Origin: Actinomycetes bacterium
GTDB lineage: Bacteria > Actinomycetota > CALGFH01
Direction: 5' to 3'
DNA: 44,790 bases
Assembly: GCA_036000965.1 (NCBI GenBank)
Contig: DASYUT010000315.1
Span: 1-44,790, forward strand
Below, piece by piece: positions 9,483 to 37,475 of this stretch. The notes beneath the pieces were generated by a model, which saw only the letters and a program-made list of their open reading frames with translations, was not told where the DNA came from and made no database searches. Position numbers and translations under genes: made by a program. Numbering within the stretch: the stretch's first letter is position 1; each line of letters starts with the position of its first letter.

Positions 9483-9953
9483 ATGGCCTCATCGCCGAAG
9501 GATTTCGCCGCTGGCGCGGTGCTGACCGCCGCACAGATGGACTCGCTGCCGCAAGGCGTCTTCGCGGTCGCCACCGCCACCGCCGATGTCGGGCCGACTT
9601 CCGGCACAACCGAGCTCGACGTCGTGACCGCGAGCGCGGTGGTGCTGCTCGCCGCCAACCGGCGCCTCAAGCTCACCTTCGCATGGCGCGGCCTGTCCGG
9701 CGCCACCTCGGGCGACGTGTACACCCTCCGCATCAAGGAAGGCGCGACCGTCCTGATGGAGTCGACCCAAGCTCCCAGCGGCGCCCTCGGTCAACTCGGC
9801 GGCACGATGGTCAGGCATCTGCCCAGCCCCACGGCGGCCTCACACACGTACAAGGCCACGATCCAGCGGGCCGCTGGGACCGGCACCGTCTCGGTGCAAG
9901 GCAACGCGAACTATCCGATCCAGCTGATTGTCGAGGACGGCGGCGAGGCGTAG
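9483..9953 (+). CDS. Tail tip / receptor-binding candidate
   Basis: 156 residues from ATG 9483. The N-terminus (KDFAAGAVLTAAQMDSLPQGV) matches short actinophage tail proteins that anchor with an F-x-AG-x-VLTAAQM motif. The rest is beta-rich. It is the last structural gene before the regulator block, so it is the best candidate for host recognition, though this is inferred from position. Confidence 0.6.
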   Translation: MASSPKDFAAGAVLTAAQMDSLPQGVFAVATATADVGPTSGTTELDVVTASAVVLLAANRRLKLTFAWRGLSGATSGDVYTLRIKEGATVLMESTQAPSGALGQLGGTMVRHLPSPTAASHTYKATIQRAAGTGTVSVQGNANYPIQLIVEDGGEA

Positions 9954-10030: not shown

Positions 10031-10073
10031 TTGACACCGCGTCGCCATCGGCGGATAAGCTCGGTACTTAACC
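10031..10073 (+). promoter_or_regulatory. Promoter of the GntR gene with an operator half-site
   Basis: TTGACA (10031-10036), 17 bases, GATAAG (10054-10059). The CTCGGTAC half of the recurring GntR-type dyad lies at 10060-10067, just downstream of -10 and over the expected start point. This suggests autoregulation. Confidence 0.65.
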
Positions 10074-10101: not shown

Positions 10102-10866
10102 ATGGTCTCGCGAGTCCCGCCCCGGCCGACCTCGTACCGGGAGATCGCCGCCGAGGTGCGCGCCGCCATCCTCGCCGGCGACTACGCCCCCGGCGACCGC
10201 CTGCCCTCCCAGCCCGAGCTGGCCCGAAGCTACGGGGTCGCCGACCGCACCGCCCAGCGCGCCGTCGAGGCCCTGCGCGCCGAGGGCCTGGTCGTCGCCA
10301 GCGTCGGCAAGGGCACCTACGTGCGCCCCCGGCCGCAAAAGATCCGCCGGCTGGTCGACGACCTCCTGGAAACCGCGCCCCGCGCCGGCTTCTACGCCGC
10401 CCTTGACCGGTACGGCCTCGAGGCCGAGGTCCACACCACCGTGAGCTGGGCGCGCCCGCCGGCGTGGGCCACCGCCGAGCTCGGCACCGACCCCGACGCC
10501 GAGGTCCTGGTCCGCGACCGGGTGATGGGCGTGGCTGGCCAGCCGCCCTTGCAGCTCGCCACCTCCTACCTGCCCCGCGACGTCGCCGAGCAGGTCCCCG
10601 CGCTGGCCCAGGAGTCCACCGGGCCGGGCGGGATGCTGGCCCGGCTCCGGGAGGCCGGCTATGAGCTCAGCTTCGAGGTCGTCGCCAACTCCCGCATGCC
10701 CTCGCCCGACGAGGCCGAACGGATGGGCCTGCAGCCCGGCACGCCGCTGGACACCCACCTGCGGCTGACGAAGGCGCAGGACGACCGGGTGCTCGACTGC
10801 ATGATGGTGGTCTCGGACTCCTCCCGGGTGGAGTGGGCCTACCGGTTCGGCCCGGAACCGGCGTAG
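10102..10866 (+). CDS. GntR family (HutC-type) transcriptional regulator
   Basis: 254 residues from ATG 10102 (GGAGG at 10086-10090). The N-terminal winged helix-turn-helix is clear: YREIAAEVRAAILAGDYAPG, then SQPELARSYGVADRTAQRAV and LVVASVGKGTYV. The C-terminal 160 residues fit a UTRA ligand-sensing domain. Relatives such as KorSA control transfer and excision in actinomycete conjugative elements. A repeated dyad with the GT-x-AC form expected of GntR operators lies in its own promoter, in the transfer operons and at the integrase. It is therefore a strong candidate for a master repressor, responding to an unknown small molecule. Confidence 0.88.
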   Translation: MVSRVPPRPTSYREIAAEVRAAILAGDYAPGDRLPSQPELARSYGVADRTAQRAVEALRAEGLVVASVGKGTYVRPRPQKIRRLVDDLLETAPRAGFYAALDRYGLEAEVHTTVSWARPPAWATAELGTDPDAEVLVRDRVMGVAGQPPLQLATSYLPRDVAEQVPALAQESTGPGGMLARLREAGYELSFEVVANSRMPSPDEAERMGLQPGTPLDTHLRLTKAQDDRVLDCMMVVSDSSRVEWAYRFGPEPA

Positions 10867-10925
10867 CGGACAGCCTGGCCGCTTGACCCTTCGGGGGGAT
10901 CGGTGCTTCCCTGAACCCGACAGGT

Positions 10926-10943
10926 TCGGTACTGAGGTTCCCA
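10926..10943 (+). promoter_or_regulatory. GntR-type operator before the SpdB-like gene
   Basis: TCGGTACTGAGGTTCCCA matches 14 of 18 positions of the site at 14049. It lies 13 bases before the start of the 10956 gene, overlapping its leader. A GACAGCCTGG element (10869-10878), one base from the second recurring motif, lies upstream. Confidence 0.6.
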
Positions 10944-10955
10944 GGGAGGCCACCA

Positions 10956-11711
10956 GTGACCGCCAGCCCCGCCACGCTGCCCGCGCTCGAGGGCGCGAGC
11001 GCGGTCGTCCCGCTGCACGTCCTCGACCCGCTCCGCCGCCGCTTCCTCACCGTCCTCGCCGGCTTCCTCGGTGCCTGCGTGGTCGGCATCATGGCGCTGG
11101 CGTTCGCGGTCTCGTTCCGCAACATCGCCAGCTACGGCAAGCCCTACATGCGCGGCTGGGAGTACGCGCTGCCGTTCTTCGTCGACGCCTTCATCGCCGT
11201 CGCGGCCGGGATCGACCTGTGGTTCGCGCTGTCCCACGACGAGGGCCACACCGAGCGCACCTGGCGCGACTACCGCCGCGAGTGGGCGCCGAAGTTCTTC
11301 TTCGCCGGGATGGTCGGCGTAAGCTTCCTCTTGAACGAGGCCGCCGCCCAGGTGCCGCTCGATGCGCGGCACGCGCCCGCGCTGATCACCCACGGCCTGG
11401 CGCCGTTCGCGCTGCTGGTCACGCACCTGCTGTTCATGACGCTGGTGCGGTCGATCGCCGCCAACCGCAACGCGGCGATCCTTGCCGCGCTCGATGGCGT
11501 GGATCCTGCAGGGCATTCAGCAGAGCAAGCAAAGCCTCGGGACCTGACCCTGAGGGAGCAGCGGAAGGTGCTCGCCATCCGGGAGCGGCACCCCAACCTT
11601 CCTGCAACCCGAGTTGCCGCGCAGGCCGGCATCGCCTACGACCCCGTCCGGGCGTTCCTGCGCGACCAGCGGCCCACCGCCGACCCGGTGATGAACGGCA
11701 AGGGGGCGTGA
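10956..11711 (+). CDS. DUF2637 / SpdB-like membrane protein
   Basis: 251 residues from GTG 10956 behind GGGAGG. Four hydrophobic segments are visible at about residues 31-53, 70-90, 113-130 and 140-165, followed by a cytoplasmic helix-turn-helix-like tail (LREQRKVLAIRERHPNLP, VAAQAGIAYDPVRAFL). This layout is that of the DUF2637 proteins common on Streptomyces conjugative plasmids and AICEs, where they sit beside the FtsK-like transfer protein and are linked to intramycelial spread. It begins the transfer-like operon. Confidence 0.75.
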   Translation: MTASPATLPALEGASAVVPLHVLDPLRRRFLTVLAGFLGACVVGIMALAFAVSFRNIASYGKPYMRGWEYALPFFVDAFIAVAAGIDLWFALSHDEGHTERTWRDYRREWAPKFFFAGMVGVSFLLNEAAAQVPLDARHAPALITHGLAPFALLVTHLLFMTLVRSIAANRNAAILAALDGVDPAGHSAEQAKPRDLTLREQRKVLAIRERHPNLPATRVAAQAGIAYDPVRAFLRDQRPTADPVMNGKGA

Positions 11712-11712
11712 G

Positions 11713-12312
11713 GTGCGCACCGCCCTGCTGCTCGCTGCGGCCGTCGCCTACGCGGCCACGTTCGCGCTCGTCTGGCCGCGGCACCGCTCGCGGGTGCGGC
11801 TGGTCCGGCGGGTCTACCGGCATGTCGACGAGGTCCTCGGCGCGCGGAAGTACGAGGCCGACCGGGCCGCGACCCTGCGGCGCCGCTGGTCCTGGATCTC
11901 CCGCGACCTCGCCAATGCGCTGTACCCGCCGACGCAGCACGCCGGCGCGGTCGCGCTGCCCCGCTACCACCGCATGCGCCGCGGCCGCGACCTGCTCGGC
12001 CGCCCGAGCGGCTACGTCGACCTCGCGCTCTCCCCGGTGCCGTGGCCGCGGCGGTTCCGCCCCTGGCACGTCCCCGCGCTCACGCTGCGCTGGACGAGCG
12101 AGGCCGGCGTCGCGGTCGGCGGCCACCAGTGGTTCACCCGGCTGGAGAAGCAGGTCGCGCAGGCTCTCGGCCTGGAATGGTCCGACGAGCTGTTCGAGAC
12201 CAAGGCGGCGTTCTCCCACGACCGGGTCCGGCTGGTCCTCGCCCGGCCGCGGCCGGTGCCCGACGGCCTGCCGTTCCGGCCCCAGCCCAAGGAGCCCGCC
12301 GATGCCGGCTGA
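11713..12312 (+). CDS. Membrane-anchored protein of the transfer-like operon
   Basis: 199 residues from GTG 11713, one base after the previous stop. One N-terminal transmembrane segment (residues 2-20) is followed by a basic, Arg-rich cytoplasmic region. Its end overlaps the FtsK-like gene. It may act as the membrane-anchor part that the short FtsK-like protein lacks; this is inferred from order. Confidence 0.6.
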   Translation: MRTALLLAAAVAYAATFALVWPRHRSRVRLVRRVYRHVDEVLGARKYEADRAATLRRRWSWISRDLANALYPPTQHAGAVALPRYHRMRRGRDLLGRPSGYVDLALSPVPWPRRFRPWHVPALTLRWTSEAGVAVGGHQWFTRLEKQVAQALGLEWSDELFETKAAFSHDRVRLVLARPRPVPDGLPFRPQPKEPADAG

Positions 12313-13201
12313 CCAGCGCGCCTTCCTCGGCTGGACGCCACGGCAGGCCAGCCCCACCCTGGTCGCGCCACGCACCGCGCCCGACGGCGCCGAGGGCCTC
12401 GCCGCGGTCTGGCCATACGGGCCCGGCTACGCCCCCCACATGCTGGTCGTCGGCACCACCGGCGGCGGCAAGACCTCGGCGAAGCGGGTCATCCTCGTCG
12501 ACCGGGTCACCGCCCCCGGCCGCCGCAAGGTCGTCATCATCGACGGCAAGGGCGGCGGCGACTACACGATGTTCCGCGGCCAGCCGGCCGTCGCCGAGAT
12601 CGTCAACGTCAACCCGCTCGCCGACCCCGAGAGCCCCGAGAAGGCCGCCGCGGCGGTCAAGGCGGTGCTCGCCGAGGTCCGCACGCGCAACGCCGCGACC
12701 GAGCGCGCCCAGCGGGAGGCGTGGGCGACCCGCCGCACCCCCGCCTACTCCGCGCCGCCGGAGCTGTGGCTGGTCATCGACGAGTGGATGTCGCTGATCT
12801 ACCAGTGCCGCAAGCTCGACGTCGACCTGGTCGGCGACGCCATCGAGATCGGCCGGGTCGGCCGCTCCACCGACACCCACCTGCTGATCGGCACCCAGCG
12901 GCCCGACACCAAGTCGGTCGAGGCCGGCCTGCCGGGCGAGCTGAAAGCCCAGCTCGGCGCCCGCGTCGCCGCCGTCGGCCCGCTCGGGCTGCGCAAGCTC
13001 GAGGCGATCATGGCGTTCGACGACGCCGAGGCCCGCCGGCTCGTCCCCCGTGAGCTCGGCGGCTGCCTGCTCATGGTCGGCGACACCTTCGTCCCCTACG
13101 TCACCCCGTACATGCCCAACCCCACCTCAGAGGACCCGTCGATCACCGACGAGCAGCGCGCCCGAGTGTGGGCGCTGCTGCCAGCCCGGGAGGCCGCGTG
13201 A
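12302..13201 (+). CDS. FtsK/SpoIIIE-type DNA translocase (TraSA/TraB-like)
   Basis: 299 residues from ATG 12302. Walker A is GTTGGGKTS at residues 51-59, Walker B is LWLVIDEW, and the FtsK sensor-like GRVGRSTDTHLLIGTQRPD follows. There is no membrane segment and no gamma domain, and the length is close to that of the pSAM2 transfer protein TraSA. Such proteins move double-stranded DNA between mycelial cells. In a phage this is unexpected, because packaging already has its own terminase motor. The preceding membrane proteins could supply the anchor. Family call firm; transfer role inferred. Confidence 0.82.
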   Translation: MPADQRAFLGWTPRQASPTLVAPRTAPDGAEGLAAVWPYGPGYAPHMLVVGTTGGGKTSAKRVILVDRVTAPGRRKVVIIDGKGGGDYTMFRGQPAVAEIVNVNPLADPESPEKAAAAVKAVLAEVRTRNAATERAQREAWATRRTPAYSAPPELWLVIDEWMSLIYQCRKLDVDLVGDAIEIGRVGRSTDTHLLIGTQRPDTKSVEAGLPGELKAQLGARVAAVGPLGLRKLEAIMAFDDAEARRLVPRELGGCLLMVGDTFVPYVTPYMPNPTSEDPSITDEQRARVWALLPAREAA

Positions 13202-13545
13202 GCACCAGCACCTGGACGCCGCTGCTGGCCGGGCCGCTGCTCCGCCCGGCCCTGGTCGCCCTGCTCGACCAGCTCGAGGCCGGCGAGACCGACCGGGCCA
13301 CGATCCGCCGGGCCGTCCTGGCCGCCTCGGCGGTCAAGCCGAAGACGTTCGACACGCTCGTCTACGAGCTCGCACGGTTCGGCCTGCTGAACCGTTCAGG
13401 CACCCGCAACGACGCGCTACAGCTCACCACGCTGGGCCAGGCGTGGCTGGTCGAGCAGGGCGCCTGGCGTGCTTCTGCCAGGGCCGAAACCAACCCTGTA
13501 AGGGTGGTTTCACCGGCGAAAGCCGGCGCTGAGGCGGAGCGGTGA
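13198..13545 (+). CDS. Small winged-helix-like protein
   Basis: 115 residues from GTG 13198, overlapping the translocase stop as GTGA. Residues 35-90 (TIRRAVLAASAVKPKTFDTL, YELARFGLLNR, LQLTTLGQAWL) look like a winged helix. In the operon it may be a DNA-binding partner of the translocase or a local regulator. Confidence 0.55.
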   Translation: MSTSTWTPLLAGPLLRPALVALLDQLEAGETDRATIRRAVLAASAVKPKTFDTLVYELARFGLLNRSGTRNDALQLTTLGQAWLVEQGAWRASARAETNPVRVVSPAKAGAEAER

Positions 13546-14021
13546 GCGACCACCGACCGAGACCGCGGGAGCGGTGGCCCATCGGTGAGACCGAGGTGCC
13601 CCTGCCCCACGACTGGGCAGGGCTGTGGCTCCGCTACCGGCTGAGCCGCGAAGGCTACCTGGCCCTCCTGGAGCACCAGCGGGGCCGCTGCGCAAAGTGC
13701 CACCGGCTGCCGTTCGGAGATACCCCGCTGGTGGTCGACCACCGCGAGAGCCGCATCTGGGGGCTGCTGCACGACCGCTGCAACCGGCCGATCGATGACG
13801 AGCTGGTGGCCTACCTGCGTGACCCGCCCGCATTCGGACTCGGCGAGGCGTTCGGCGTCATCCCGCCCGAGGTGGAGCGGCGGGGCGCCGAGCGACGGCG
13901 GCGGAACCGGCTCGCGCAGCGCGACTGGCGCAAGCGCCGCAGCGCCGAGCAGGCCGAGCACCAGGCCGCCGCCGACCGCGTCGACGGGTATGGGGAGTGG
14001 CTGGCGGGGCGGCTGCGGTAG
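13542..14021 (+). CDS. Endonuclease VII-like HNH protein
   Basis: 159 residues from GTG 13542, overlapping by GTGA. It has C-x2-C (GRCAKCHRLP), VVDHRES and GLLHDRCNRPI, the beta-beta-alpha metal layout of the T4 endonuclease VII family; the first cysteine of the second knuckle appears replaced by His. The C-terminus is a charged helix. It may resolve branched DNA or nick transfer or replication intermediates. Final gene of this operon. Confidence 0.72.
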   Translation: MSDHRPRPRERWPIGETEVPLPHDWAGLWLRYRLSREGYLALLEHQRGRCAKCHRLPFGDTPLVVDHRESRIWGLLHDRCNRPIDDELVAYLRDPPAFGLGEAFGVIPPEVERRGAERRRRNRLAQRDWRKRRSAEQAEHQAAADRVDGYGEWLAGRLR

Positions 14022-14040
14022 GCCGGCCGGGATCGACAGC

Positions 14041-14069
14041 TTGTCACCTTGGTACTGAGGTACTAAGCT
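14041..14069 (+). promoter_or_regulatory. Promoter with GntR-type operator in its spacer
   Basis: TTGTCA (14041-14046), a 17-base spacer, TAAGCT (14064-14069). The spacer and -10 hold the dyad TTGGTACTGAGGTACTAA (14049-14066), so a bound repressor would block polymerase directly. The same architecture recurs at the integrase (23222-23250). It drives the small-membrane-protein operon from 14110. Confidence 0.75.
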
Positions 14070-14109
14070 AGGCGGTCAGACAAGGACCCCTCGCTCCCGG
14101 GAGCCCGCG

Positions 14110-14331
14110 ATGGGATGGCGCGACTACTTCACCGACAGCGGCGACGAGCCCGAGGACCGCACGTTCACGTTCACCGGCTTCTCGACCCCGAAGTTCGAGC
14201 AGGCGCTGGCCGATATGCGGCGCCACTTCGGCGACGACGACCCGGACGACCCGCTCGGGGACACCGCCTGGAACGCTTGGCTTGACGACCGGGGCCGCGA
14301 CTGGCTGCGGAAGCAGGAGCAGGGAGGCTGA
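14110..14331 (+). CDS. Small acidic hypothetical protein
   Basis: 73 residues from ATG 14110 behind GGGAG. Strongly acidic in the middle (GDDDPDDPLGD). First gene of the operator-controlled operon at 14041. No family recognised. Confidence 0.6.
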   Translation: MGWRDYFTDSGDEPEDRTFTFTGFSTPKFEQALADMRRHFGDDDPDDPLGDTAWNAWLDDRGRDWLRKQEQGG

Positions 14332-14334
14332 CCC

Positions 14335-14547
14335 ATGGCCAAGGGCATCGTGATGTTCCTGCTGGGGTTCGCCTCGACGATCCTCGGCCTGATCGTGTTC
14401 CTGTTCGTCATGTCGGTCCTGCCGGCCGGGCCGCTGGCCGCAGCCGCCGGCGGCGTCCTCAACGGCCTCGGCTACCTGTTCGGCGAGGCGCTGCCGGAGA
14501 TCGGCCGCATTGCCCTGAAGGCCGCCGCGAAGCAGCTCGGGGTCTGA
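14335..14547 (+). CDS. Small membrane protein
   Basis: 70 residues from ATG 14335. Residues 4-32 form a long hydrophobic segment and a second weaker one follows (AAAAGGVLNGLGYLFG). Second gene of the operon at 14110; an accessory membrane role in the transfer-like cassette is inferred. Confidence 0.6.
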   Translation: MAKGIVMFLLGFASTILGLIVFLFVMSVLPAGPLAAAAGGVLNGLGYLFGEALPEIGRIALKAAAKQLGV

Positions 14548-14552
14548 GCCCG

Positions 14553-15242
14553 ATGAGTGGCTGGGTCGTCACCGCCGGCCTGGTCCTGGCGGTCGCCATG
14601 GTGGCGAGCCGGGGCGGCCCGTTCGGCGCGGCCGGGTGGCTGGTCGCGCTGCCGCTCCGCCTCGGCGCCTGGGCACTCGGCAAGGTCTGGGCCGGCACCA
14701 AGCTCGGCGTCCTGTCGTTCCTCGCCCTGGTCGGCGAGGAGGTCCAGCGGTGGCTGATCCTCGCCACCTGGGGCGCGGTCCTGCTCGGCTTCTCCTACGC
14801 CGGCCGGGCCGTCCACGCCCCGCTGACCCTGCAGGGCGTCGTCGCGGTCGCCACGCTGGTGTGGCTGACCCTGCTGGTCCGCAACCTGCGCCGCGTCCTG
14901 GCGGGCCGGTTCGCGCGGTCGGCGAACCGGGCGCTGTTCCGCAAGCTCGAGGAGATGGCCGACGCGCTGCCGGGCCAGGTCGAGGCGGCCGTCGCCGCAG
15001 GCCGGCAGGGCGCGGCGCAGGCGCTGCCGGCGGTCCGGCCGTCGCCGCACCCGACCGAGCGGTTCACCGCGCGGATCCGGCAGAAGGCCGCCGAGGCGGT
15101 CGCGGGCACGACCGGGGAAGGCGGGCTGGCGTTCGAGCCGGTCGTCGCCGCGCCGGAGGTGCCCCGCTGGATGCGCCGGGCGGCCGGGCAGACCCGCCAG
15201 GGCTTCCGGCAGGGCCTGGGAAGGAAGCGAGGCCGCTCGTGA
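14553..15242 (+). CDS. Multi-pass membrane protein of the transfer-like cassette
   Basis: 229 residues from ATG 14553. Hydrophobic segments at about residues 4-20, 70-88 and 95-112 are followed by a basic cytoplasmic tail ending RQGLGRKRGRS. There is no recognisable family. Small multi-pass proteins with basic tails are typical of spread (Spd) genes next to FtsK-like transfer proteins in Streptomyces plasmids. Confidence 0.55.
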   Translation: MSGWVVTAGLVLAVAMVASRGGPFGAAGWLVALPLRLGAWALGKVWAGTKLGVLSFLALVGEEVQRWLILATWGAVLLGFSYAGRAVHAPLTLQGVVAVATLVWLTLLVRNLRRVLAGRFARSANRALFRKLEEMADALPGQVEAAVAAGRQGAAQALPAVRPSPHPTERFTARIRQKAAEAVAGTTGEGGLAFEPVVAAPEVPRWMRRAAGQTRQGFRQGLGRKRGRS

Positions 15243-15469
15243 TCCTCAACTTCGCCTGCGCCGTGCTGATGGTGTGCGGCGTGCTCTACCTGGTCGGCTG
15301 GCCGCACCGCCGCCGGACCTACAAGGCCGCCTGCCGGGCCGCGGTCGACGCGGCGTGGCTGCGCGCCCAGCTCGAGTCCGCCCCCGACCCCGCTGGGGGC
15401 GGCGAGGTGGCGCCGGTGACCCAACTGCCCACCGGGAGGGGCGACCGGGGCCGGCGCCACCTCAACTAG
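15239..15469 (+). CDS. Small membrane protein
   Basis: 76 residues from GTG 15239, overlapping the previous stop (GTGA). One N-terminal transmembrane segment (residues 2-20) and an Arg-rich cytoplasmic tail. Coupled to the preceding membrane gene. Confidence 0.55.
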   Translation: MILNFACAVLMVCGVLYLVGWPHRRRTYKAACRAAVDAAWLRAQLESAPDPAGGGEVAPVTQLPTGRGDRGRRHLN

Positions 15470-15488
15470 CAGAAGGGAGGCTGTACGC

Positions 15489-15782
15489 ATGCCGTCGCCG
15501 CGCGCTACCCTCAAGGTGCTTCGGTACCGAGGAGGGCGCGTGCGCACCGACGAGATCATCGCCAGGGTCGCCGCGGTGGTGCTCCGCGACCCGCACGGCG
15601 ACGTCCTGGGCACCCTGCGCCGTGAGCTCTCCGGGGACGACCTGGAGTTCGCGGAGACGCTGGCCGCCGTGTGCGTGTTCATCCACGAGGAGCGGCAGGT
15701 GGCGGGGTTCGGCCCGGACGGCGTCGCGCGGTTGCGTGACCACTACGAGGCCCGGCGGCTCGCCGCCTCCGTCCGCCGCTAG
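15489..15782 (+). CDS. Hypothetical protein, possible second start at 15540
   Basis: 97 residues from ATG 15489 behind GAAGGGAGG. An in-frame GTG at 15540 has its own GAGGAGG ribosome site and yields 80 residues (RTDEIIARVAAVVLRDPHGD). A GntR-type operator half (15521-15532) lies just before that second start, hinting that a shorter product could be made from an internal promoter. The protein is small and helical, with no family recognised. Confidence 0.6.
   Translation: MPSPRATLKVLRYRGGRVRTDEIIARVAAVVLRDPHGDVLGTLRRELSGDDLEFAETLAAVCVFIHEERQVAGFGPDGVARLRDHYEARRLAASVRR
15521..15538 (+). promoter_or_regulatory. Partial GntR-type operator inside the 15489 gene
   Basis: TCGGTACCGAGG matches 11 of the first 12 positions of the integrase site, but the right half is absent. 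TACCCT at about 15516 could serve as a -10. Weak site. Confidence 0.4.
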
Positions 15783-15815
15783 CCGACGGGGGCCTGCCTC
15801 GAAAGGCTGCCCCGC

Positions 15816-16019
15816 ATGACCACCACCACCCACGCCGCCGCCGCGGCGGTCCCCGCCAAGCCCGCCACCCACCCCGGCGAGATGTCGCTGGGCGAGCACG
15901 TGGTCCTCGCCTGGCAGACGACCGACCTGGCCGTCCGCACCGTCCTCGTCGGCCTCGTCGGCCTGCTGATCGCGCTGTCCGCCGCGCTGGGGCTGCTCGC
16001 CCCGCACGTCCTGCGGTGA
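15816..16019 (+). CDS. Small membrane protein
   Basis: 67 residues from ATG 15816 behind GAAAGG. Ala/Thr-rich N-terminus, then one transmembrane segment (VRTVLVGLVGLLIALSAALG, residues 40-60). Its stop overlaps the next start. Confidence 0.6.
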   Translation: MTTTTHAAAAAVPAKPATHPGEMSLGEHVVLAWQTTDLAVRTVLVGLVGLLIALSAALGLLAPHVLR

Positions 16020-16222
16020 ACGGCGCCGGCGCGATCGTGGTCGTCGCCCTCGTCCTGATGTGGCTGGTCGACCTGATCCCGTTCGACGCCTACCTGCACG
16101 TCGACGCCCGCCGCCAGCAGCACGAGGCGCACCGCCGCCTCCTGGCTGAGGCCGAGCTGGAGCCGACCGTGCCGCTGCACGGTGAGCTCACCCGGCCGGG
16201 CCGGGACCTGGAGCGCCGCTGA
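16016..16222 (+). CDS. Small membrane protein
   Basis: 68 residues from GTG 16016, overlapping by GTGA. N-terminal transmembrane segment (AIVVVALVLMWLVDLIPF) and a charged cytoplasmic helix. One of a run of small membrane proteins behind the translocase. Confidence 0.58.
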   Translation: MNGAGAIVVVALVLMWLVDLIPFDAYLHVDARRQQHEAHRRLLAEAELEPTVPLHGELTRPGRDLERR

Positions 16223-16440
16223 TGCGCCTGGTGTTCCGTTGCTGCCCGGCCTGCCGCCAGCCCGTCCCGGTCGACCGGGACGGGCTGCTGCTCGCCCACC
16301 GCGTCCTCGCCGACCCGGCGCGGCACCGCTGCGCCTACGAGGGCGTAGGTGTTGACAACCTGGACGCACGATCGTACGGTCCAGGCGTGCGCGGGGGCGC
16401 GCGCCCTGCGGTCAGGGCAGCCGTGGCGCGTCGTCCGTGA
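16222..16440 (+). CDS. Small zinc-binding protein
   Basis: 72 residues from ATG 16222 (TGATG overlap). The start MRLVFRCCPACRQPVPV gives a C-x2-C knuckle and another Cys follows at about residue 37 (RHRCAYEG). The C-terminal third is read through the promoter of the next gene. Recalls small RRQRL or zinc-binding genes beside AICE transfer genes, not provable here. Confidence 0.5.
   Translation: MRLVFRCCPACRQPVPVDRDGLLLAHRVLADPARHRCAYEGVGVDNLDARSYGPGVRGGARPAVRAAVARRP
16352..16380 (+). promoter_or_regulatory. Sigma-70-like promoter for 16451
   Basis: TTGACA (16352-16357), 17 bases, TACGGT (16375-16380), lying within the end of the 16222 gene. Confidence 0.6.
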
Positions 16441-16450
16441 GGAGACCGCT

Positions 16451-16639
16451 GTGACCGTCCCCGCCACCCAGCCCGCCCGCCCGGTCGCGGCCACCTCCGG
16501 GCCGCTGGTCACCCTCGATGCCCGCGACCCCGACGCCCGCGCGGCGCTGCACTGGCTGGCCGACCGGCTCGACGCTGCGGCGTGGACGCCGGACGGGATG
16601 CTGCTGCGCGACGTCGCCCGCGCCTACGCCGACCCGTGA
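16451..16639 (+). CDS. Small hypothetical protein
   Basis: 62 residues from GTG 16451 behind GAGGAGA. Contains DARAALHWLADRLDAAAWTP. Has its own promoter (16352) and is closed by a strong hairpin (16671). Last gene of the cassette. Confidence 0.55.
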   Translation: MTVPATQPARPVAATSGPLVTLDARDPDARAALHWLADRLDAAAWTPDGMLLRDVARAYADP

Positions 16640-21468: not shown

Positions 21469-21933
21469 ATGACCGCGATGGCCGAGCACGACCGCAGCGA
21501 GCGCCTGGAGGCCGGCAACGGCAACTACTGGCGCGACCCTGACGGGGTGTGGCGCTACGCCTGGGGCGATGGGCCGGTGCCCCGCGCGCGCGACCGCCTC
21601 GACGCCGACGGGGAGGTCGTCGGCCTGGATGCGCCGGAGCTCGCCCCGGACGCGCTGGTGGACGCCCACACGATCGCCCGCGAGCGGGGCTGGCAGCCGC
21701 AGACCCTGCGGATGGTGGTCCACCGCCGCCGGCACTGCCCGCCGGTGGTCAGCTTCACCGGCAACGGACAGCCCGCCCTGTACTCCCGCGCCGCGATCAA
21801 GAAGTTCGACGCCTGGCTGGCCGCGAAGCTCAACGCGGCCGGCCTCGATGCGTCGCGGTGGCCGCCGCGGCTGCTGGCCGCGCGCGACCGCTCCCGCGAG
21901 TTCGCCGACATGCTCAACGACCAGGGCCACTAG
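21469..21933 (+). CDS. Excisionase-like HTH protein
   Basis: 154 residues from ATG 21469 behind GGGAGCGG. Residues 60-115 (VDAHTIARERGWQPQTLRMVV, then a beta turn and YSRAAIKKFDAWLAAKL) look like the winged HTH of excisionases (RDFs). The gene converges on the integrase, overlapping it by four bases. The last residues, DRSREFADMLND, are an exact 39-bp copy of part of the candidate repressor (23778-23816), after which the protein ends within three residues. The end may therefore have been made by recombination. Confidence 0.6.
   Translation: MTAMAEHDRSERLEAGNGNYWRDPDGVWRYAWGDGPVPRARDRLDADGEVVGLDAPELAPDALVDAHTIARERGWQPQTLRMVVHRRRHCPPVVSFTGNGQPALYSRAAIKKFDAWLAAKLNAAGLDASRWPPRLLAARDRSREFADMLNDQGH
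21883..21921 (+). repeat. 39-bp inverted repeat, left copy
   Basis: Exact inverted match to 23778-23816. The pair flanks the whole integrase gene. Confidence 0.9.
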
Positions 21934-23186
21934 CCGGCCCTCCGGTCGGGGAGCGCCAGCACGTCGGTGACCACGTCGAGGTCGTAGCCGACCGTGTAGC
22001 GGCGGGTCACCGCCGACCCGGGCCGGTGGCCGAGCGCGATCCCGATGGCGCGTTCGTTGCGGCCACGGCCGAGCCGGGCCATGTCGTGGGCGAAGGTGTG
22101 CCGCAGGCCGTGCGCGGTCGCGTCGCCGCCGGCGTCGTTCTTGATCCCCAGGTCGCGCAGCTTGCCGTTGAGGAGCTTGGAGACGGCCTTGGCGGTCAGG
22201 TGGTCGCCCGGGTGGGTCAGGCTCTCGATGACCGGGCCGCGGGTCGTCCGCGCCGCCAGGTGGGCGGCGAGCTCGTCGGCCAGCCAGGGCAGCAGCGGCA
22301 CCGACCGCTCCCGTGAACCCTTGCCGGTGACGTACAGCACCGGCACCTCGCCGCCGAGGTTGACGTGCTCGACCCGCAGCGACGCGACCTCGGCGCAGCG
22401 CAGCCCGGCGCGGTAGGCGAGCAGGACCATCAGCCGCAGCCGGGGATCGGTGCCGGGCAGGTCGCAGGCGGCGAACAGCGTCCGAAGGCCGGGGCCGAAC
22501 CGGGACGCCTCCCACGGGATCGCGCGGGGGATCGCGGCCTCGCAGCTCGGCACGGTGAGCCGGGCCAGCGGGTCGCGGCGGACCCAGCCCTCGGAGGTCG
22601 CGAAGCCGTAGAAGCTCTTGCCGGCCGTCACGTACAGCTCGACCGACTTCGGCGCGAGGAACCCGGTGCGGGCCCTCGGGCGGGACGCGGCGAGGAAGTC
22701 GGTGAACAGCTCCCGGGTCGCCTTCGTCCAGTGCTTGGGGCGCGTCCGCCGCTCGAGGAAGCCGTTCGGGCCGGCGAACGACCACAGCGGCTGCCGATAG
22801 GCGGTCGCGGTGGTGGCGGTGCGGTGGCGGTCGGCGACCAGGTAGGCGCGGTAGCGCTCCCAGGCCACGGAGAAGGCCACGACTGCGGTGTCGGCGTCGA
22901 ACGGGTCGGCGCCGGCGTGCGTGGGGGGCTGGCTAGCCATGGCGGCCACCGCGACGCCCAGGACCACGCCTGCCACCCAGGCGCGGGCACGGGACCGGGA
23001 CCAGGTCGAGCATCGCGGCACAGCGGCGCCCCCTGCTGCTGCCAGCCCCCCGGTGCACGCACCTGTCATAGGCGCCGCGGGGTGCCGGATCGTTACGGGT
23101 TCCGGGTCTTCCTCGGTAGGACTGCGGAGCGGGTGGGCGCCCCGCCCGGCGGCCATGGCCGCCGGGTAACCGCCGGGCGGGGGCAC
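21930..23186 (-). CDS. int: Tyrosine integrase
   Basis: A tyrosine recombinase on the minus strand. The core-binding domain (VAWERYRAYLVADRHRTATT to SFYGFATSEGW) is followed by the catalytic domain with Arg in AGLRCAEVASL, Lys in TGKGSRERSVPL, HGLRHTFAHDMARLG, the ALGHRPG box and Tyr in RRYTVGYD. The start is unsure: GTG 23186 gives 418 residues with a hydrophobic stretch (WVAGVVLGVAVAAM) unusual for an integrase, whereas ATG 22940 (MASQPPTHAGADPF) gives a usual 336 residues. A promoter with the GntR-type dyad lies at 23222-23250. It would insert the circle into an unidentified host site. Confidence 0.88.
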   Translation of the reverse strand: MPPPGGYPAAMAAGRGAHPLRSPTEEDPEPVTIRHPAAPMTGACTGGLAAAGGAAVPRCSTWSRSRARAWVAGVVLGVAVAAMASQPPTHAGADPFDADTAVVAFSVAWERYRAYLVADRHRTATTATAYRQPLWSFAGPNGFLERRTRPKHWTKATRELFTDFLAASRPRARTGFLAPKSVELYVTAGKSFYGFATSEGWVRRDPLARLTVPSCEAAIPRAIPWEASRFGPGLRTLFAACDLPGTDPRLRLMVLLAYRAGLRCAEVASLRVEHVNLGGEVPVLYVTGKGSRERSVPLLPWLADELAAHLAARTTRGPVIESLTHPGDHLTAKAVSKLLNGKLRDLGIKNDAGGDATAHGLRHTFAHDMARLGRGRNERAIGIALGHRPGSAVTRRYTVGYDLDVVTDVLALPDRRAG

Positions 23187-23221
23187 GAGTGGCGGGTCTG
23201 TCGGGTTGCTCTGGTTCGTTC

Positions 23222-23250
23222 AGTTTAGTACCTCGGTACCAAACCGGCAA
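23222..23250 (-). promoter_or_regulatory. Integrase promoter with GntR-type operator in its spacer
   Basis: Minus strand: TTGCCG (23250-23245), 17 bases, TAAACT (23227-23222). The near-perfect dyad TTAGTAC-CTCG-GTACCAA (23225-23242) covers the spacer and part of -10. It matches 17 of 18 positions of the operator at 14049 and sits in the same register. Confidence 0.75.
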
Positions 23251-23319
23251 GGGGGAACCCAGCAGGACGGCGAAGGCAGGGGCGGCGGGCATGGCGGGGC
23301 TCTCTCGGCGGGGCAGCGG

Positions 23320-23341
23320 GGACACGGCCGCCCAGGTGTCC
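23320..23341 (-). terminator. Hairpin after the candidate repressor gene
   Basis: GGACAC (23320-23325) pairs with GTGTCC (23336-23341) right after the minus-strand stop at 23343. It would separate repressor from integrase transcription. Confidence 0.5.
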
Positions 23342-23342
23342 G

Positions 23343-24299
23343 TTACGACGCGAGCGCGGCAGTCGTGGCGGCTTCGACCAGCTCGTCAGCGTAGTTGGCG
23401 CTACCTGGGGAAACGTCGTAGTGTCTCTTATGACCTTTGTCCTGGTCAGAAGCGGCGTTTGGAGCTTGGCCGCCCGAGTCCAAGACGCGGCGGAGCCGTC
23501 GCGCGTCCAGGCCGGCGGCGAGGCCGCCGAGCCACCACACCGCGACCTGCTCGCGGTCCAGGGTCGGGACGACCGCGACGCAGGCGTCGACGATCTCGTG
23601 GTCGGGGGTGGCGGGCAGGTGCTCGTCGCCCTCCAGGCCCAGGAGCCGCTGCACCTGCTTGTGCCGGTAGGAGAACGTCGGGTCGTCCTTGGCGGCGCGC
23701 AGGTGCCGGGTGATCGCGGTCGCGAGCTCGCCCACGGTCACCGGCTGGCCGCGCCGGGAGCCCCACTCGTCCAGCGCGTCGTTGAGCATGTCGGCGAACT
23801 CGCGGGAGCGGTCGCGGGGCCGGGCGGTGCGGGCCGCCCAGCGGTCGGAGGTGGTGGCGATCCTCACGGTCACGTCCTCCCCGTCGTAGACCTGGCGGGC
23901 CGCGGCCAGCAGCCGGCCGGCGTCGAGGTCGACGCCGAGGTCCTGGAACGCGGCGACCCACGCGGCGAGCAGCCGCTGGCCGTGGCCGTCGCGGGACCAG
24001 CCCGGCGCGGCGCGGTCGTCGTCGTCGCCGACGAAGCGGCCCATCGAGTCGCGGACCCGGCCGTGCTCATCCGGGTAGAGCTGCCCGTCGGCGATGAACT
24101 TCACGTAGCCGCGCAGGACCTTCTTGGCCTGGTAGGGGGTGTAGGTGTGCTCGCTGCCGAGGTGGCGGTCGATCCGGGCGGCCAGCTCCGAGGGGGTGAC
24201 CGGCCGGCCGCGGCGCCGCTCGGCGGTGCGCACGGCGTTGTTGAGGGCGGCGGCCAGCGCGGGGCTGCGCGGCTGCTCAGCCTGCCGGTCCGCAGGCAT
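23343..24299 (-). CDS. Candidate phage repressor / HTH protein with duplicated domain
   Basis: 318 residues, ATG at 24299 on the minus strand behind GGAGG. Two segments are clearly related: LNNAVRTAERRRGRPVTPSE with ARIDRHLGSEHTYTPYQAKK near the N-terminus, and LNDALDEWGSRRGQPVTVGE with AITRHLRAAKDDPTFSYRHK in the middle. This points to a tandem HTH-like module. It is divergent from a small HTH gene and next to the integrase, the usual place of an immunity repressor. It carries the 39-bp sequence shared with the excisionase-like gene. Confidence 0.6.
   Translation of the reverse strand: MPADRQAEQPRSPALAAALNNAVRTAERRRGRPVTPSELAARIDRHLGSEHTYTPYQAKKVLRGYVKFIADGQLYPDEHGRVRDSMGRFVGDDDDRAAPGWSRDGHGQRLLAAWVAAFQDLGVDLDAGRLLAAARQVYDGEDVTVRIATTSDRWAARTARPRDRSREFADMLNDALDEWGSRRGQPVTVGELATAITRHLRAAKDDPTFSYRHKQVQRLLGLEGDEHLPATPDHEIVDACVAVVPTLDREQVAVWWLGGLAAGLDARRLRRVLDSGGQAPNAASDQDKGHKRHYDVSPGSANYADELVEAATTAALAS
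23778..23816 (-). repeat. 39-bp inverted repeat, right copy
   Basis: Inverted copy of 21883-21921; here it lies in the middle of the candidate repressor. Confidence 0.9.
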
Positions 24300-27977: not shown

Positions 27978-28877
27978 GTGACCAGCCCCGTCCGCGTCTA
28001 CGGCCGCAACTTCGGCCGGGTGCCAGACGAGCTGCTCTGGGACACGGGCGCCTCGGACGCGGCGTGCCGGCTCTACGCCGCGTTGACCCGCTACGGCCAG
28101 CGCGGCGACCGGATCGTCCCGCCGCGCAAGGAGCTGGCCAAGCGGCTCGGCTGGTCGACCAGCAAGCTCGACCGCTACCGAGAGGAACTCGAACGCATCG
28201 GTGCGCTGTACGTCGAGCACTGCTTCGACCCCAAGACTCGCCGCCAGGAGGAGTCGGCCTACTGGATCGACGGTCGCCGGCCCCTCCCCAAATCTGATAA
28301 GGGGTCCCTCCCCACTGATGATGAGGGGTCCCTCCCCAAATCTGGGAAGGACGCCGTTCCGAAATCTGGGGAGCCTATAGAGCAGAGAGAGAGTTCGGCT
28401 CCTAACGGAGCCGGCGCCAAGGCGCCGGCGTCGAGTTCGAACGGCACGAGCGGCAACCCGCAGACCAGCCTCGCGGCCCTGATCGACCACGTCCGCGAGC
28501 GGACCGGCAACCCCGCCTACCGGCCGGACGACACGACGATCGGCAAGCTCACCAAGGCGTTCGAGCGGTGCTACGCGGCCGGCGCGACCGCCGCCGAGGT
28601 CGATGCGGCCGCGCGGGCGTGGGCGGCCGAGGACCGGGACGCCTCGCTGCTGCCGTCGTTCGTGGACGCCCGCCGTCGTGGCGGCCAGCGCAACGGCCAA
28701 CCAGGGCACGTGACGCCGCCGCGGTCGCACGTGGGCCACGACGGCCGCCACGACCCGGCGTGCTGGTGCTACTCACCGACTGGCGGCACGGGCGCGCCGC
28801 CCCTGCTCGAGGCCGCCGGGATCGCCCGCCGAACTCCCGTCCCCGCAGGCGTTGACAACGTGGCCGCTGATGGGTAG
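27978..28877 (+). CDS. Replication initiator (lambda O-like) with internal origin iterons
   Basis: 299 residues from GTG 27978. The N-terminal 100 residues are a winged helix (YAALTRYGQRGDRIVPPRKE, LAKRLGWSTSKLDRYREEL) as in phage and plasmid initiators. Residues about 101-132 are four 8-residue repeats of the LPKSDKG/LPTDDEG type, coded by 24-bp iterons. The C-terminal half (residues 155-220) is a DnaD/O-like helical domain (IDHVRERTGNPAYRPDDTTI). The protein would bind its own gene and load a host helicase. Confidence 0.72.
   Translation: MTSPVRVYGRNFGRVPDELLWDTGASDAACRLYAALTRYGQRGDRIVPPRKELAKRLGWSTSKLDRYREELERIGALYVEHCFDPKTRRQEESAYWIDGRRPLPKSDKGSLPTDDEGSLPKSGKDAVPKSGEPIEQRESSAPNGAGAKAPASSSNGTSGNPQTSLAALIDHVRERTGNPAYRPDDTTIGKLTKAFERCYAAGATAAEVDAAARAWAAEDRDASLLPSFVDARRRGGQRNGQPGHVTPPRSHVGHDGRHDPACWCYSPTGGTGAPPLLEAAGIARRTPVPAGVDNVAADG
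28279..28374 (+). repeat. Four 24-bp iterons, candidate replication origin
   Basis: Units at 28279-28302, 28303-28326, 28327-28350 and 28351-28374. Units 1-3 share CCCTCCCCA followed by AATCTG or a variant; unit 4 is degenerate. They are in frame within the initiator gene and are followed by a purine-rich, relatively AT-rich stretch (28375-28400). This is the lambda ori layout. Confidence 0.65.
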
Positions 28878-30596: not shown

Positions 30597-31012
30597 GCGA
30601 GCGCTACGTCCCCGACCAGGCCGCCGTGGACTGGGCGCGCGCTGCGGTCGAGCGCGTCTTGGCCCGCATGGAAGAGCACCACGCCTGGCAGGAGGCCAAC
30701 CGTCCCTTGGCCCAAGCCCAGGGCTATCAGATGGCGATGCGCTGGCTGCGCCGCGAGCTGATCGGCGGGCAGGGCTGCGTCATCGCCGCGTTCGACCAGC
30801 GCCGCCCCGAGGTCGAGAAGGCGATGGAACACGGTCGGCCGTGGGTCGACCGCACGATGCATGACCGGGCCGACGGTCCGCCCCTCGCGCCGCCGGTCCG
30901 CGCCCCCGCCTCGGCCGCGACTTCCCCCGCGGCCGAGGCGGGTTCCACGTCCGGTGGGGCGGCAGAGCTGGGGCCCGCCGCCCCGCCGGAACGACCCGAA
31001 GGCGGGCGATGA
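30593..31012 (+). CDS. Hypothetical protein upstream of the methyltransferases
   Basis: 139 residues from GTG 30593. Helical N-terminal 95 residues (VDWARAAVERVLARMEEHHA) and a disordered Pro/Ala tail. Overlaps the methyltransferase start. Confidence 0.55.
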   Translation: MSERYVPDQAAVDWARAAVERVLARMEEHHAWQEANRPLAQAQGYQMAMRWLRRELIGGQGCVIAAFDQRRPEVEKAMEHGRPWVDRTMHDRADGPPLAPPVRAPASAATSPAAEAGSTSGGAAELGPAAPPERPEGGR

Positions 31013-32505
31013 CCCGCACCGTCGTGGACCTGTTCGCCGGTGGCCCGTCCGGGTGGGAGTGGGCCGCCCGCGCCCTCGACATCGACCCGATCGGCTTCGA
31101 GCTCGACCCGTGGGCGTGCGCGACCCGCGCCGCCGCCGGCCTGCGGACCGTCCGCGCCGACGTCGCCCGCCTCCCGGTCGGCCACCTCGCTGGCCGGGTG
31201 TGGGGCGTGGTCGCGTCGCCGCCGTGCCAGCAGTTCTCCGCCGCCGGGTCCGGCGCCGGCCGCCACGTCGAGCAGGTCCTGGCCTCGGCGATCGTTGACG
31301 CGCTGCGCGGCCGGCGCACCCTCGCCCGCCGCCGCCGCGAGATGGCGCGGGCGCTCCAGGCCGCCGGCTGGCCCGACTGGAAGCTGCCCCGCGCCGAGCG
31401 GTCCCGCCGCGCCTGGGCCGCCGTCCGCAACGCCGCCCTGGTCGTCCAGCCCGCCCGGTGGGTCGCGGCCACCCGGCCCGAGTGGGTCTGCATGGAGCAG
31501 GTCCCCGCCGTCCTCGGCCTGTGGCGGGTCTACGCCGCCGAGCTGCGCCGCCTCAGCTACAGCGCCTGGGCCGGCGTCCTCAACTCGGCCGACTACGGCG
31601 TCCCGCAGACCCGCGAACGGGCCATCCTCATCGCCTCGCGGGTGGGCGTCTCGACCGCGCCGGCGCCCTCCCACGCCCGCGACCCGCAGCCCACGCTGTT
31701 CGGCACGCTCGAGCGCTGGGTGTCGATGGCCGAGGCCTTGGGCTGGGCAGGCGCGGTCGAGACCGAGCAGACCAGCGAGGTGGCCGCCGGGCGGGTGCCG
31801 CACCTGGTCGGCACCGAACGGCCTGCACTGGCCGTGGTCGCCAACGCCGACCGCTGGCTGGTGCGGACCACCTACGGGCAGCCGCGCGACCACCCGAAGA
31901 ACGGCAGCCACCTGCTCGACCCGCACGCCCGGCCCGCGCATGCGGTGACCAGCAAGGCGCGTAACTGGACGGTCCGCACCGGCATCAATGGGATGAAGCA
32001 CTCCCGCGACGTGGCCGACCTCGAGCCGTACGAGCGGCCCATCGACCAGCCCGCCCCGACCGTCCACCAGCCGCAACGCTGGCGCGTCGCGCCGGAGGGC
32101 GGCCACCGCCCCACGCCGCAGGAGTGGCGGCTGCGCAGTGGCAACCAGCCGAAGGCGACACAGCGGCCCCTCGGTGAGCCTGCACCAACGCTCGCCTTCG
32201 GCCACAACTCGGCCCGGGTGCAGTGGGCTGACCACCGCCCCGCCACCACCGTCCAGGGCGACCCGCGAGTAGGTCGCCCCGGCCACAAGCAGCGCGAGCA
32301 CGGCGAGGGCCAGTTCGAGGCCGACGCGGTGCGGATCACCGTGCCGGAGGCGCTCGTGCTGCAGGGCTTCCCGCCCGACCTGTCCGTCCAGGGCACCAAG
32401 ACGGCCCAGTTCACCCAGGTCGGCAACGCCATCCCGCCGCAGCTCGCGCTGGCGGTGCTCGGCCAGGTCGTGCCCGCGCCCGAGGCCGGGCAGGTGCCGG
32501 CGTGA
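31009..32505 (+). CDS. DNA (cytosine-5) methyltransferase
   Basis: 498 residues from ATG 31009. Motif I is VVDLFAGGPSGWEWA, motif IV is ASPPCQQFS with the nucleophile Cys73, motif VI is EQVP rather than ENV, motif VIII is QTRERAILIA and motif X is QVGNAIPPQLA. Between VIII and X lies a long target domain with repeated P-A-x-T units (QPAPTVHQ, EPAPTLAF, RPATTVQG). No restriction enzyme is beside it, so it probably protects phage DNA from host cutting. The Gln in place of Asn in motif VI is notable. Confidence 0.88.
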   Translation: MTRTVVDLFAGGPSGWEWAARALDIDPIGFELDPWACATRAAAGLRTVRADVARLPVGHLAGRVWGVVASPPCQQFSAAGSGAGRHVEQVLASAIVDALRGRRTLARRRREMARALQAAGWPDWKLPRAERSRRAWAAVRNAALVVQPARWVAATRPEWVCMEQVPAVLGLWRVYAAELRRLSYSAWAGVLNSADYGVPQTRERAILIASRVGVSTAPAPSHARDPQPTLFGTLERWVSMAEALGWAGAVETEQTSEVAAGRVPHLVGTERPALAVVANADRWLVRTTYGQPRDHPKNGSHLLDPHARPAHAVTSKARNWTVRTGINGMKHSRDVADLEPYERPIDQPAPTVHQPQRWRVAPEGGHRPTPQEWRLRSGNQPKATQRPLGEPAPTLAFGHNSARVQWADHRPATTVQGDPRVGRPGHKQREHGEGQFEADAVRITVPEALVLQGFPPDLSVQGTKTAQFTQVGNAIPPQLALAVLGQVVPAPEAGQVPA

Positions 32506-33155
32506 CCGCGCTCGAGCCCTACTACGATGACGGCACGGTCCGCCTCTATGTCGGTGACTGCCGCAGGGTCCTGCCCGAGCTCGACCCGGCCGCATTCGCC
32601 GTGCTGGCCGGTGACCCGCCCTACGGGATCGGCTACCGCTCTGGCCAGTACGGGACGCTGCCACGGTCGATCCTTGGCGATGAATCCACCCTGATCCGGG
32701 ACGCCGCCCTCGAATGGTGGGGCAGCCGGCCGGCGCTGGTCTTCGGCTCTTGGAAGATCCCCCGCCCGGCCAGCACCCGGATGCGGCTGGTCTGGGACAC
32801 CAAGGGCGCCAACGGCATGGGCGCGCTTGACCTGCCTTGGAAGCCATCCGACCAGGAAATCTACGTCCTCGGCCGGGGCTTCCACGGTCGCCGCGACTCC
32901 AACGTCCTCCGCTTCGCCCCCGTGCAGAGCCTTGCCCGCAACGGTCGCGTCCACCCGCACGAGAAGCCCGTCGACCTGATGCGCGCGCTACTGCTCAAGT
33001 GCCCACCCGGCGCGGTCATCGACCCGTGGTGCGGTAGCGGCCCTACCCTGCGGGCCGCAAAGGACCTCGGCCGCCCCGCCGTCGGCATCGAGCTGGAAGA
33101 GCGCTGGTGCGAGCAGGCTGCCCGCCGGCTCGCCCAGGAAGTGCTCGCTGTATGA
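32502..33155 (+). CDS. DNA amino-methyltransferase (N6-adenine or N4-cytosine), beta class
   Basis: 217 residues from GTG 32502, overlapping the C5 enzyme. The catalytic motif DPPYGIGY (motif IV) precedes the AdoMet motif DPWCGSGPTLRAAKDLGR (motif I), the order of beta-class enzymes. Short target region. Together with the C5 enzyme it gives two modification types. Confidence 0.85.
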   Translation: MTALEPYYDDGTVRLYVGDCRRVLPELDPAAFAVLAGDPPYGIGYRSGQYGTLPRSILGDESTLIRDAALEWWGSRPALVFGSWKIPRPASTRMRLVWDTKGANGMGALDLPWKPSDQEIYVLGRGFHGRRDSNVLRFAPVQSLARNGRVHPHEKPVDLMRALLLKCPPGAVIDPWCGSGPTLRAAKDLGRPAVGIELEERWCEQAARRLAQEVLAV

Positions 33156-35678: not shown

Positions 35679-35767
35679 CCGGCGGCTGGATCTGGGTCGG
35701 CTGCATCGTGATCGTCGTGGTCGCGCTCGGGATCGCGCTGCTGCTGGACTCGGCGGACCGGCGCTGA
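35675..35767 (+). CDS. Tiny single-pass membrane protein
   Basis: 30 residues from GTG 35675, overlapped on both sides. One transmembrane segment (WIWVGCIVIVVVALGIALLL). Confidence 0.5.
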   Translation: MTGGWIWVGCIVIVVVALGIALLLDSADRR

Positions 35768-35961
35768 TGGCCACGATCCTGGTCAGCCTCACGGCCTGCT
35801 GGGCGCGTCGCGACGACGCCCCGCCGTTCGAGGACCCCACCCGCAGCCACCCGGCCGAAGAGGCCCACACCTGGGCATGCCGCGCCGAGGTCCCCGCCGA
35901 CGACCCGCTCGGCCTGTGCGCCCACCACCGCGCCCAGCTCGCCCGCCGGGTGCCGCGGTGA
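35767..35961 (+). CDS. Small hypothetical protein
   Basis: 64 residues from ATG 35767 (TGATG). Three Cys and several His (AEEAHTWACRAE, GLCAHHRAQLA) suggest a metal site. Unknown role. Confidence 0.5.
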   Translation: MATILVSLTACWARRDDAPPFEDPTRSHPAEEAHTWACRAEVPADDPLGLCAHHRAQLARRVPR

Positions 35962-36965: not shown

Positions 36966-36979
36966 CCACCGCTGGTGCC

Positions 36980-36994: not shown

Positions 36995-37000
36995 CCCGGC

Positions 37001-37147: not shown

Positions 37148-37164
37148 GCGCTGAGAGGAGACCG

Positions 37165-37467: not shown

Positions 37468-37475
37468 CCCTGCCG

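Follow-up and report, generated by a model that had tools for sequence, protein, structure and literature searches.

The contig DASYUT010000315.1 (44,790 bases, 72.8% G+C, from a 6.47-Mb bin), analyzed here over its whole length as the window, carries a cassette of ∼6.8 kb in which a GntR-type regulator, a DUF2637 gene, and an FtsK-type DNA pump are combined within a phage genome. The first and last 141 bases of the window are identical, so that it maps as a 44,649-bp circle, as would be seen with a circular replicon or with phage DNA that is circularly permuted. It encodes a head maturation protease, an HK97-type capsid, tail, tape measure, endolysin, portal, and terminase (TerL) proteins, together with a XerC-like tyrosine recombinase, a candidate Cro/C1-type repressor, and a phage-type replication initiator. 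Judged by this gene content, the window is a temperate siphovirus of the HK97 type with a complete set of head, packaging, tail, and lysis genes. Relatives of its TerL are found in IMG/VR viral contigs (at most 84% identity) and in genomes of Micromonospora, Prauserella, Amycolatopsis, and Jiangella, all of which are filamentous genera. Of the features used to define phage-plasmids, virion genes and a circular contig are present, the latter being also what permuted virion DNA would yield; no partition gene or plasmid Rep was found among the window open reading frames (ORFs) scanned. Three further phage portal genes on the bin contigs C347, C311, and C287 mark the host as prophage-rich.

Genes of the cassette

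The cassette lies between the last tail-side gene (9483-9953) and the lysis genes, a holin-like gene with four transmembrane (TM) segments (16825) and an endolysin gene (17994; phrog_291, 2.7e-28). It comprises the following genes.

10102..10866, plus strand: GntR/UTRA (KorSA-like) regulator (PF00392 2.2e-16, PF07702 2.4e-8)
10956..11711, plus strand: divergent DUF2637 (Spd-type) multi-TM membrane protein (BLAST via a protein of its own genome; TM-like stretches)
11713..12312, plus strand: single-TM anchor (N-terminal TM 1-22; no family match)
12302..13201, plus strand: FtsK/SpoIIIE-type translocase motor, 299 amino acids (PF01580 2.9e-12, over cut-off)
13198..13545, plus strand: small helix-turn-helix (HTH)-like protein, overlapping the motor gene (no family match)
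13542..14021, plus strand: endonuclease VII (EndoVII)-like HNH nuclease (PF02945 5e-5, PHROG)
14110..14331, plus strand: small acidic protein, first gene past operator site O3 (coding score; no family match)
14335..14547, plus strand: small membrane protein (TM 1-42; a similar-sized membrane protein lies at the same place in the related contig C300)
14553..15242, plus strand: membrane protein, 229 amino acids (two TM-like stretches)
15239..15469, plus strand: small membrane protein (TM 1-23)
15540..15782, plus strand: small soluble protein, ORF open from 15489 (coding score; no family match)
15816..16019, plus strand: small membrane protein (TM 35-67)
16016..16222, plus strand: small membrane protein (TM 1-27)
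16451..16639, plus strand: last small cassette ORF, open from 16349 (coding score)

The regulator ORF is open from a TTG at 10084 and has an ATG with a GGAGG at 10102. Its product resembles GntR proteins encoded next to TraSA in actinomycete integrative and conjugative elements (AICEs; 1.7e-29 and 6.8e-31) and the GntR protein of the Micromonospora phage pMLP1 (33% over 247 amino acids). Like a KorSA-type regulator, it combines a GntR HTH with a UTRA domain, is encoded beside tra, and has predicted operator-like sites at the tra and regulator promoters. No direct Pfam match was obtained for the 10956-11711 protein; it aligns with a protein of its own genome that scores above the PF10935 cut-off (38.6% over 145 amino acids, E 3e-15, BLAST), and its membership in PF10935 is therefore transitive.

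The anchor ORF (199 amino acids) shares 11 bp with the motor ORF and possibly corresponds to the N-terminal part of a pump like TraSA or TraB that has become a separate gene; a single-sequence AlphaFold2 (AF2) model of the anchor was unusable for fold searches (predicted local distance difference test, pLDDT, 41). The motor contains a Walker A (GTTGGGKT) and a Walker B (LWLVIDEW) motif. For the protein overlapping the motor gene, a low-confidence single-sequence AF2 model (pLDDT 56, too poor for a fold search) contains three short helices, which makes an HTH identity plausible only. The EndoVII-like protein scores exactly at the Pfam cut-off and matches three PHROG endonuclease VII families (4e-8 to 8e-7). 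Near the cassette end, a perfect 30-bp palindrome (CAGCCCGTCCCGGTCGACCGGGACGGGCTG, 16258-16287) is located inside a small ORF; the sps palindromes of plasmid pIJ101 likewise lie inside an spd gene (PMC4170104).

A preliminary description of this DNA had placed a GntR/UTRA regulator, a DUF2637/SpdB-like protein, a membrane anchor, an FtsK translocase, an EndoVII-like gene, and some five small membrane genes between tail and lysis genes, and profiles, BLAST, and TM stretches bear out this arrangement. The translocase had also been called TraSA-sized, which suits the anchor and motor taken together (199 + 299 residues) and not the motor alone, with 299 residues against 421-461 in complete AICE TraSA proteins. 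The proposed winged-helix protein is represented by the weak three-helix model and has no family match.

Lineage of the motor and distribution of the cassette

In a maximum-likelihood tree, the motor of the window and that of C300, a contig of the same bin, form one lineage (support 98) outside the TraSA (100), FtsK (100), and EccC clades. Since it falls outside the TraSA clade, the motor may be TraSA-like in its pump action at most and is not a TraSA. Profile alignment with hhalign gave an E-value of 2.8e-11 against AICE TraSA over most of the motor domain and of 3e-18 against EccC, the type VII secretion ATPase. The best curated match of the motor domain is also an EccC model (TIGR03924, 7.5e-14), but an EccC identity was rejected: the score is 51 against a cut-off of 509, the motor lies outside the EccC clade and possesses a single motor domain, and no ESX genes were seen. 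Its nearest plasmid relative is a 737-amino acid FtsK/SpoIIIE protein of the Micrococcus linear plasmid pJD12 (32% identity), which joins the lineage weakly and on a long branch. pJD12 has been called probably conjugative (PMC4463532). In contrast to the cassette, it encodes a single large protein on a linear plasmid without known virion genes, and the transfer role of that protein is putative.

FtsK-like motors are also found in cluster J mycobacteriophages (Omega, LittleE) and in many Bacillus phages. The cluster J proteins, presumed to translocate phage DNA (PMC3706429), resemble the cassette motor as FtsK-family motors of an actinophage. They group with cellular FtsK (support 100), however, so that the window motor, outside that clade, is not of the cluster J type, and their annotated neighborhood lacks a DUF2637/GntR cassette. 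Like the window, phage pMLP1 has AICE-like GntR genes, and small membrane genes lie close to its lysis-type genes. An FtsK motor was not found in it; its gene 4149 appeared DUF2637-like by eye and was not confirmed by a home-made profile.

We compared the cassette with seven Streptomyces AICE-type loci, selected for their DUF2637 genes, and with an annotated circular element of S. formicae. In these loci, TraSA comes first, then DUF2637 and the small membrane proteins, and finally Rep, Xis, and Int; in several of them, TraSA has a GntR gene as neighbor. When the published AICE criteria (PMC3218068) are applied to the window, Tra is present (PF01580), Int is uncertain (the recombinase may be an invertase), and virion genes are present as well. 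No AICE-type Rep was detected by Pfam in ∼20 larger non-structural ORFs, the small ORFs being partly scanned and RepSA having no Pfam model there; the gene at 27978-28877 looks phage-like (phrog_270, 3.6e-6). Thus, the cassette shares with Streptomyces AICE modules of the pSAM2 type a GntR/UTRA regulator, a DUF2637 gene, an FtsK-type pump, a run of small membrane proteins, and a tyrosine recombinase predicted to be controlled by the same regulator, but differs from them by its location in a complete phage genome, another pump lineage, the split between anchor and motor, another gene order, and the EndoVII gene in the core, with neither an AICE Rep nor clt repeats found. TraB, the motor of Streptomyces double-stranded DNA (dsDNA) conjugation (pSVH1, pIJ101), is one polypeptide with a DNA-recognizing winged helix and a clt target. 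The cassette resembles this TraB/Spd system in its membrane-associated FtsK-like motor and its small membrane and spread proteins, whereas its anchor, motor, and HTH-like protein are separate and a target sequence was not found.

Several observations identify the cassette as cargo of the phage. A motor relative was found in none of 14 records that carry a relative of the window's terminase, many of them fragments; one gave a weak generic match (E 7e-4). Two near-complete relatives, G397 (43.7 kb, TerL 84% identical) and G399 (28.7 kb, TerL 80% identical), have identical ends and therefore look complete, and both lack the cassette, which is thus cargo. The last tail gene of G397 ends at 31360, one base before the start of a holin-like gene (31361), and the window has the cassette at the equivalent place.

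A second copy of the core is present on C300 (10,285 bp), where homologues of the anchor (41% identity), the motor (39-44%), and EndoVII (42%) retain their order, with the anchor homologue directly upstream of the motor and membrane genes after the core. The 229-residue membrane protein of the cassette has a positional counterpart at C300 2696-3283, without BLAST homology between the two at 1e-2. The early genes that follow on C300 are of phage type: one resembles a recombination directionality factor (PF18897), others match PHROG families, and one encodes a phage-type regulator. The presence of the core on the window and on the phage-like C300 makes the cassette a module common to two phage-like elements. 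No other contig shares an end sequence with C300, and the element could not be extended.

Beyond the bin, searches of viral and genome contigs with the motor (as single protein or two-row alignment), and of viral contigs with the DUF2637-like protein, the GntR protein, and gene B, returned no relatives, the pattern search being insensitive to divergent proteins. A search of 397 genomes from the phylum found, outside the bin, no motor relative closer than the EccC/FtsK level. DUF2637 genes are scattered across the genome of the bin. In G397 (35734-37930), a Pfam-level DUF2637 gene lies near a gene judged by eye to be transglycosylase-like, and the bin phage contig C311 (1-1648) carries the same pair (81-85% identity). 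A further DUF2637 gene, near a Prauserella prophage, seems to be located outside the phage gene region and was not counted.

DUF2637 and FtsK genes are thus already known separately in phages; new are their combination, the pump lineage, and the regulation. The preliminary description had considered the gene set characteristic of actinomycete conjugative elements and not of siphoviruses. The first part of this statement stands as a resemblance, whereas the second is too strong in view of the DUF2637 genes of G397 and C311, the GntR genes of pMLP1, and the FtsK-like motors of cluster J and Bacillus phages. Likewise, its label "AICE-like" applies to the GntR and DUF2637 genes and not to the pump, which lies outside the TraSA clade, or to replication, no Rep being found. 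Presence of the cassette in most strictly lytic relatives had been named as evidence against such a label; we found it in none of the relatives, lytic or otherwise.

Operators, lytic motif, and invertible segment

Five GntR-operator-like sites (O1-O5) were predicted in the window, partly with a position weight matrix (PWM), and one of them lies upstream of the recombinase gene.

10038..10059, plus strand: promoter-like sequence of the regulator gene, TTGACA ... GATAAG/TAAGCT (read from the sequence; consensus only)
10052..10071, plus strand: O1, weak GntR-operator-like site at the gntR promoter (PWM 8.1)
10925..10944, plus strand: O2, GntR-operator-like site between gntR and the DUF2637 gene (PWM 17.5)
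14048..14067, plus strand: O3, palindromic operator-like site CTTGGTACTGAGGTACTAAG within the promoter-like TTGTCA-N17-TAAGCT (motif counts)
15512..15531, plus strand: O4, weak GntR-operator-like site (PWM 11.3)
21930..23186, minus strand: XerC-like tyrosine recombinase, conservative start 22967 (PF00589 1.6e-17; XerC model 8.2e-30)
23224..23243, minus strand: O5, palindromic operator-like site within the promoter-like TTGCCG-N17-TAAACT (palindrome and promoter geometry as O3)

O3, which precedes the second half of the cassette, and O5, ∼38 bp upstream of the recombinase ORF, are 20-bp palindromes of the form CTTrGTACYnnrGTACYAAG, each placed in a 17-bp promoter spacer. The PWM was trained on these two sites and tested against 100 shuffled genomes. 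The score of O2 was reached in 0 of the 100 shuffled genomes. With the training sites set aside, O4 ranks second (20 of 100 shuffled genomes had a best site at least as good) and O1 third (in 16 of 100, the third-best site scored at least 8.1). All five sites are intergenic. GGTACYNAGG occurs four times in the window (0.32 expected) and GTACn4GTAC twice (0.15 expected). An automatic promoter scan of the cassette region returned no promoter. Taken together, the GTAC palindrome is probably the operator of the GntR regulator, and the tyrosine recombinase is likely co-regulated with the cassette. A precedent is offered by the GntR protein KorSA of pSAM2, which represses replication and transfer through pra (PMC3218068).

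A different motif, TGACAGNCTGT (TGACAGnCTGT), occurs at five places with six strand hits (0.02 expected). Its positions (16770, 24706, 27341, 34363, and 42369) are junctions ahead of lysis, early, and late genes, and it is the probable operator of a lytic regulon. It is absent from the cassette proper, and the GTAC palindromes do not occur at lytic promoters. TGACAGNCTGT was not found in the relatives searched, so that its conservation could not be checked. The simplest reading of both motifs is that two regulons exist, a lytic one and another that would unite the cassette with the recombinase.

The recombinase gene is enclosed by a perfect 39-bp inverted repeat (region 21469-24299; arms 21883-21921 and 23778-23816). 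Each arm lies in frame within a regulator-like gene and codes for the same 13 residues (RDRSREFADMLND), and inversion of the segment would yield intact ORFs of 295 and 177 amino acids instead of 154 and 318. On account of this in-frame repeat, the recombinase may be an invertase; a recombinase-driven invertible regulator switch, with O5 inside the segment, is probable. No convincing attB was found in the bin.

Possible functions of the cassette

We tentatively favor, at somewhat less than even confidence, the view that the cassette regulates itself and encodes a membrane-anchored dsDNA pump by which phage DNA would cross septa or pass through hyphal contacts. The GntR protein would bind the GTAC palindromes and hold the cassette and the recombinase silent. 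Upon its release, a dsDNA pump would form in the membrane from anchor and motor. The DUF2637 protein and the small membrane proteins would act Spd-like at septa or contact sites, and the pump would drive phage or prophage dsDNA into neighboring hyphal compartments or cells, as in the Streptomyces TraB/Spd system. By analogy, we infer that the cassette works like an AICE transfer unit without belonging to the AICE TraSA family. The family assignments, the AICE-type loci, the cargo status, the core found in two copies, the operators, the separate lytic motif, the KorSA precedent, and the filamentous habit of the genera with TerL relatives argue in favor of this still tentative reading.

Other observations weigh against it. 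Membership of the motor in the TraSA clade was rejected by the tree, and one-to-one profile scores put EccC ahead of TraSA. The clt-like repeats that the preliminary description had suggested as targets of the translocase were not seen: no clustered 8-mer (clt/TRS) rises above the GC-rich background, and a tandem-repeat scan was unremarkable. C300 lacks both the HTH gene at the equivalent place and a GTAC operator. O1 and O4 lack significance on their own, and the GTAC statistics are somewhat generous, as the motif was spotted before testing. The filamentous habit is known for the genera of the TerL relatives, not for the host of the window. Finally, EndoVII is part of the conserved core, yet no part of known AICE transfer.

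The last point is the best argument for two other explanations. The cassette could be a superinfection exclusion or defense moron, in which a membrane-anchored FtsK/HerA-type motor and the EndoVII-like nuclease, with a GntR control of their own, would rid the lysogen of incoming DNA by cutting or expelling it. The joint presence of motor and nuclease in the core, the regulator apart from the lytic motif, and the site between tail and lysis genes would fit such a moron. PADLOC finds generic matches of the motor to the defense motors SspH (1e-11) and Mad8 (1e-10), but these are limited to the motor fold, and no complete system was recognized. The DUF2637 protein and the AICE-like GntR regulator are left unexplained, and we consider this explanation unlikely.

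Alternatively, pump and EndoVII could serve phage growth by clearing, resolving, or positioning DNA for packaging, or by moving replicating DNA through septa before lysis. EndoVII is classically a resolvase of the packaging stage, cassette and late genes run in the same direction, and the role presumed for the cluster J proteins (PMC3706429) is of this kind. However, the closest complete relatives grow without the cassette, and it has a regulator and operators of its own but not the lytic motif; a growth function appears decidedly improbable. That the cassette is non-functional or passenger AICE debris is very improbable: the mobile elements of the bin exchange such genes, and its DUF2637 genes are scattered, but all cassette ORFs are intact with a high coding bias in third-position G+C and tight overlaps, the core is conserved at ∼40% identity in C300, and the operator sites are ordered.

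Under the transfer reading, the phage might have two modes of spreading, by virions and by moving its own dsDNA through a split pump of a new lineage, with a GntR regulon that also controls the recombinase; the recombinase may flip a regulator gene and thereby switch between the modes. We regard this extended proposal as doubtful. Phages and conjugative elements are usually regarded as separate spreading routes, and a survey from 2024 found only two P1-like phage-plasmids with any mob/oriT function (PMC10879196). The novelty is a complete phage that incorporates AICE-type transfer functions and whose pump belongs to a new lineage. If transfer is indeed their role, the cassette would provide a direct view of the passage of modules between AICEs and phages in actinobacteria. 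The operator, the split pump, and the regulon linking transfer genes to the recombinase are offered as testable predictions.

Elsewhere in the phage genome, terminase and portal genes are located on the minus strand, and protease and capsid genes on the plus strand (38805-44788), an arrangement that is equally divergent in G397. In the regions 31009-33155 and 33826-34365, neighboring C5-cytosine and N6/N4 DNA methyltransferase genes are followed by a WhiB-family gene.

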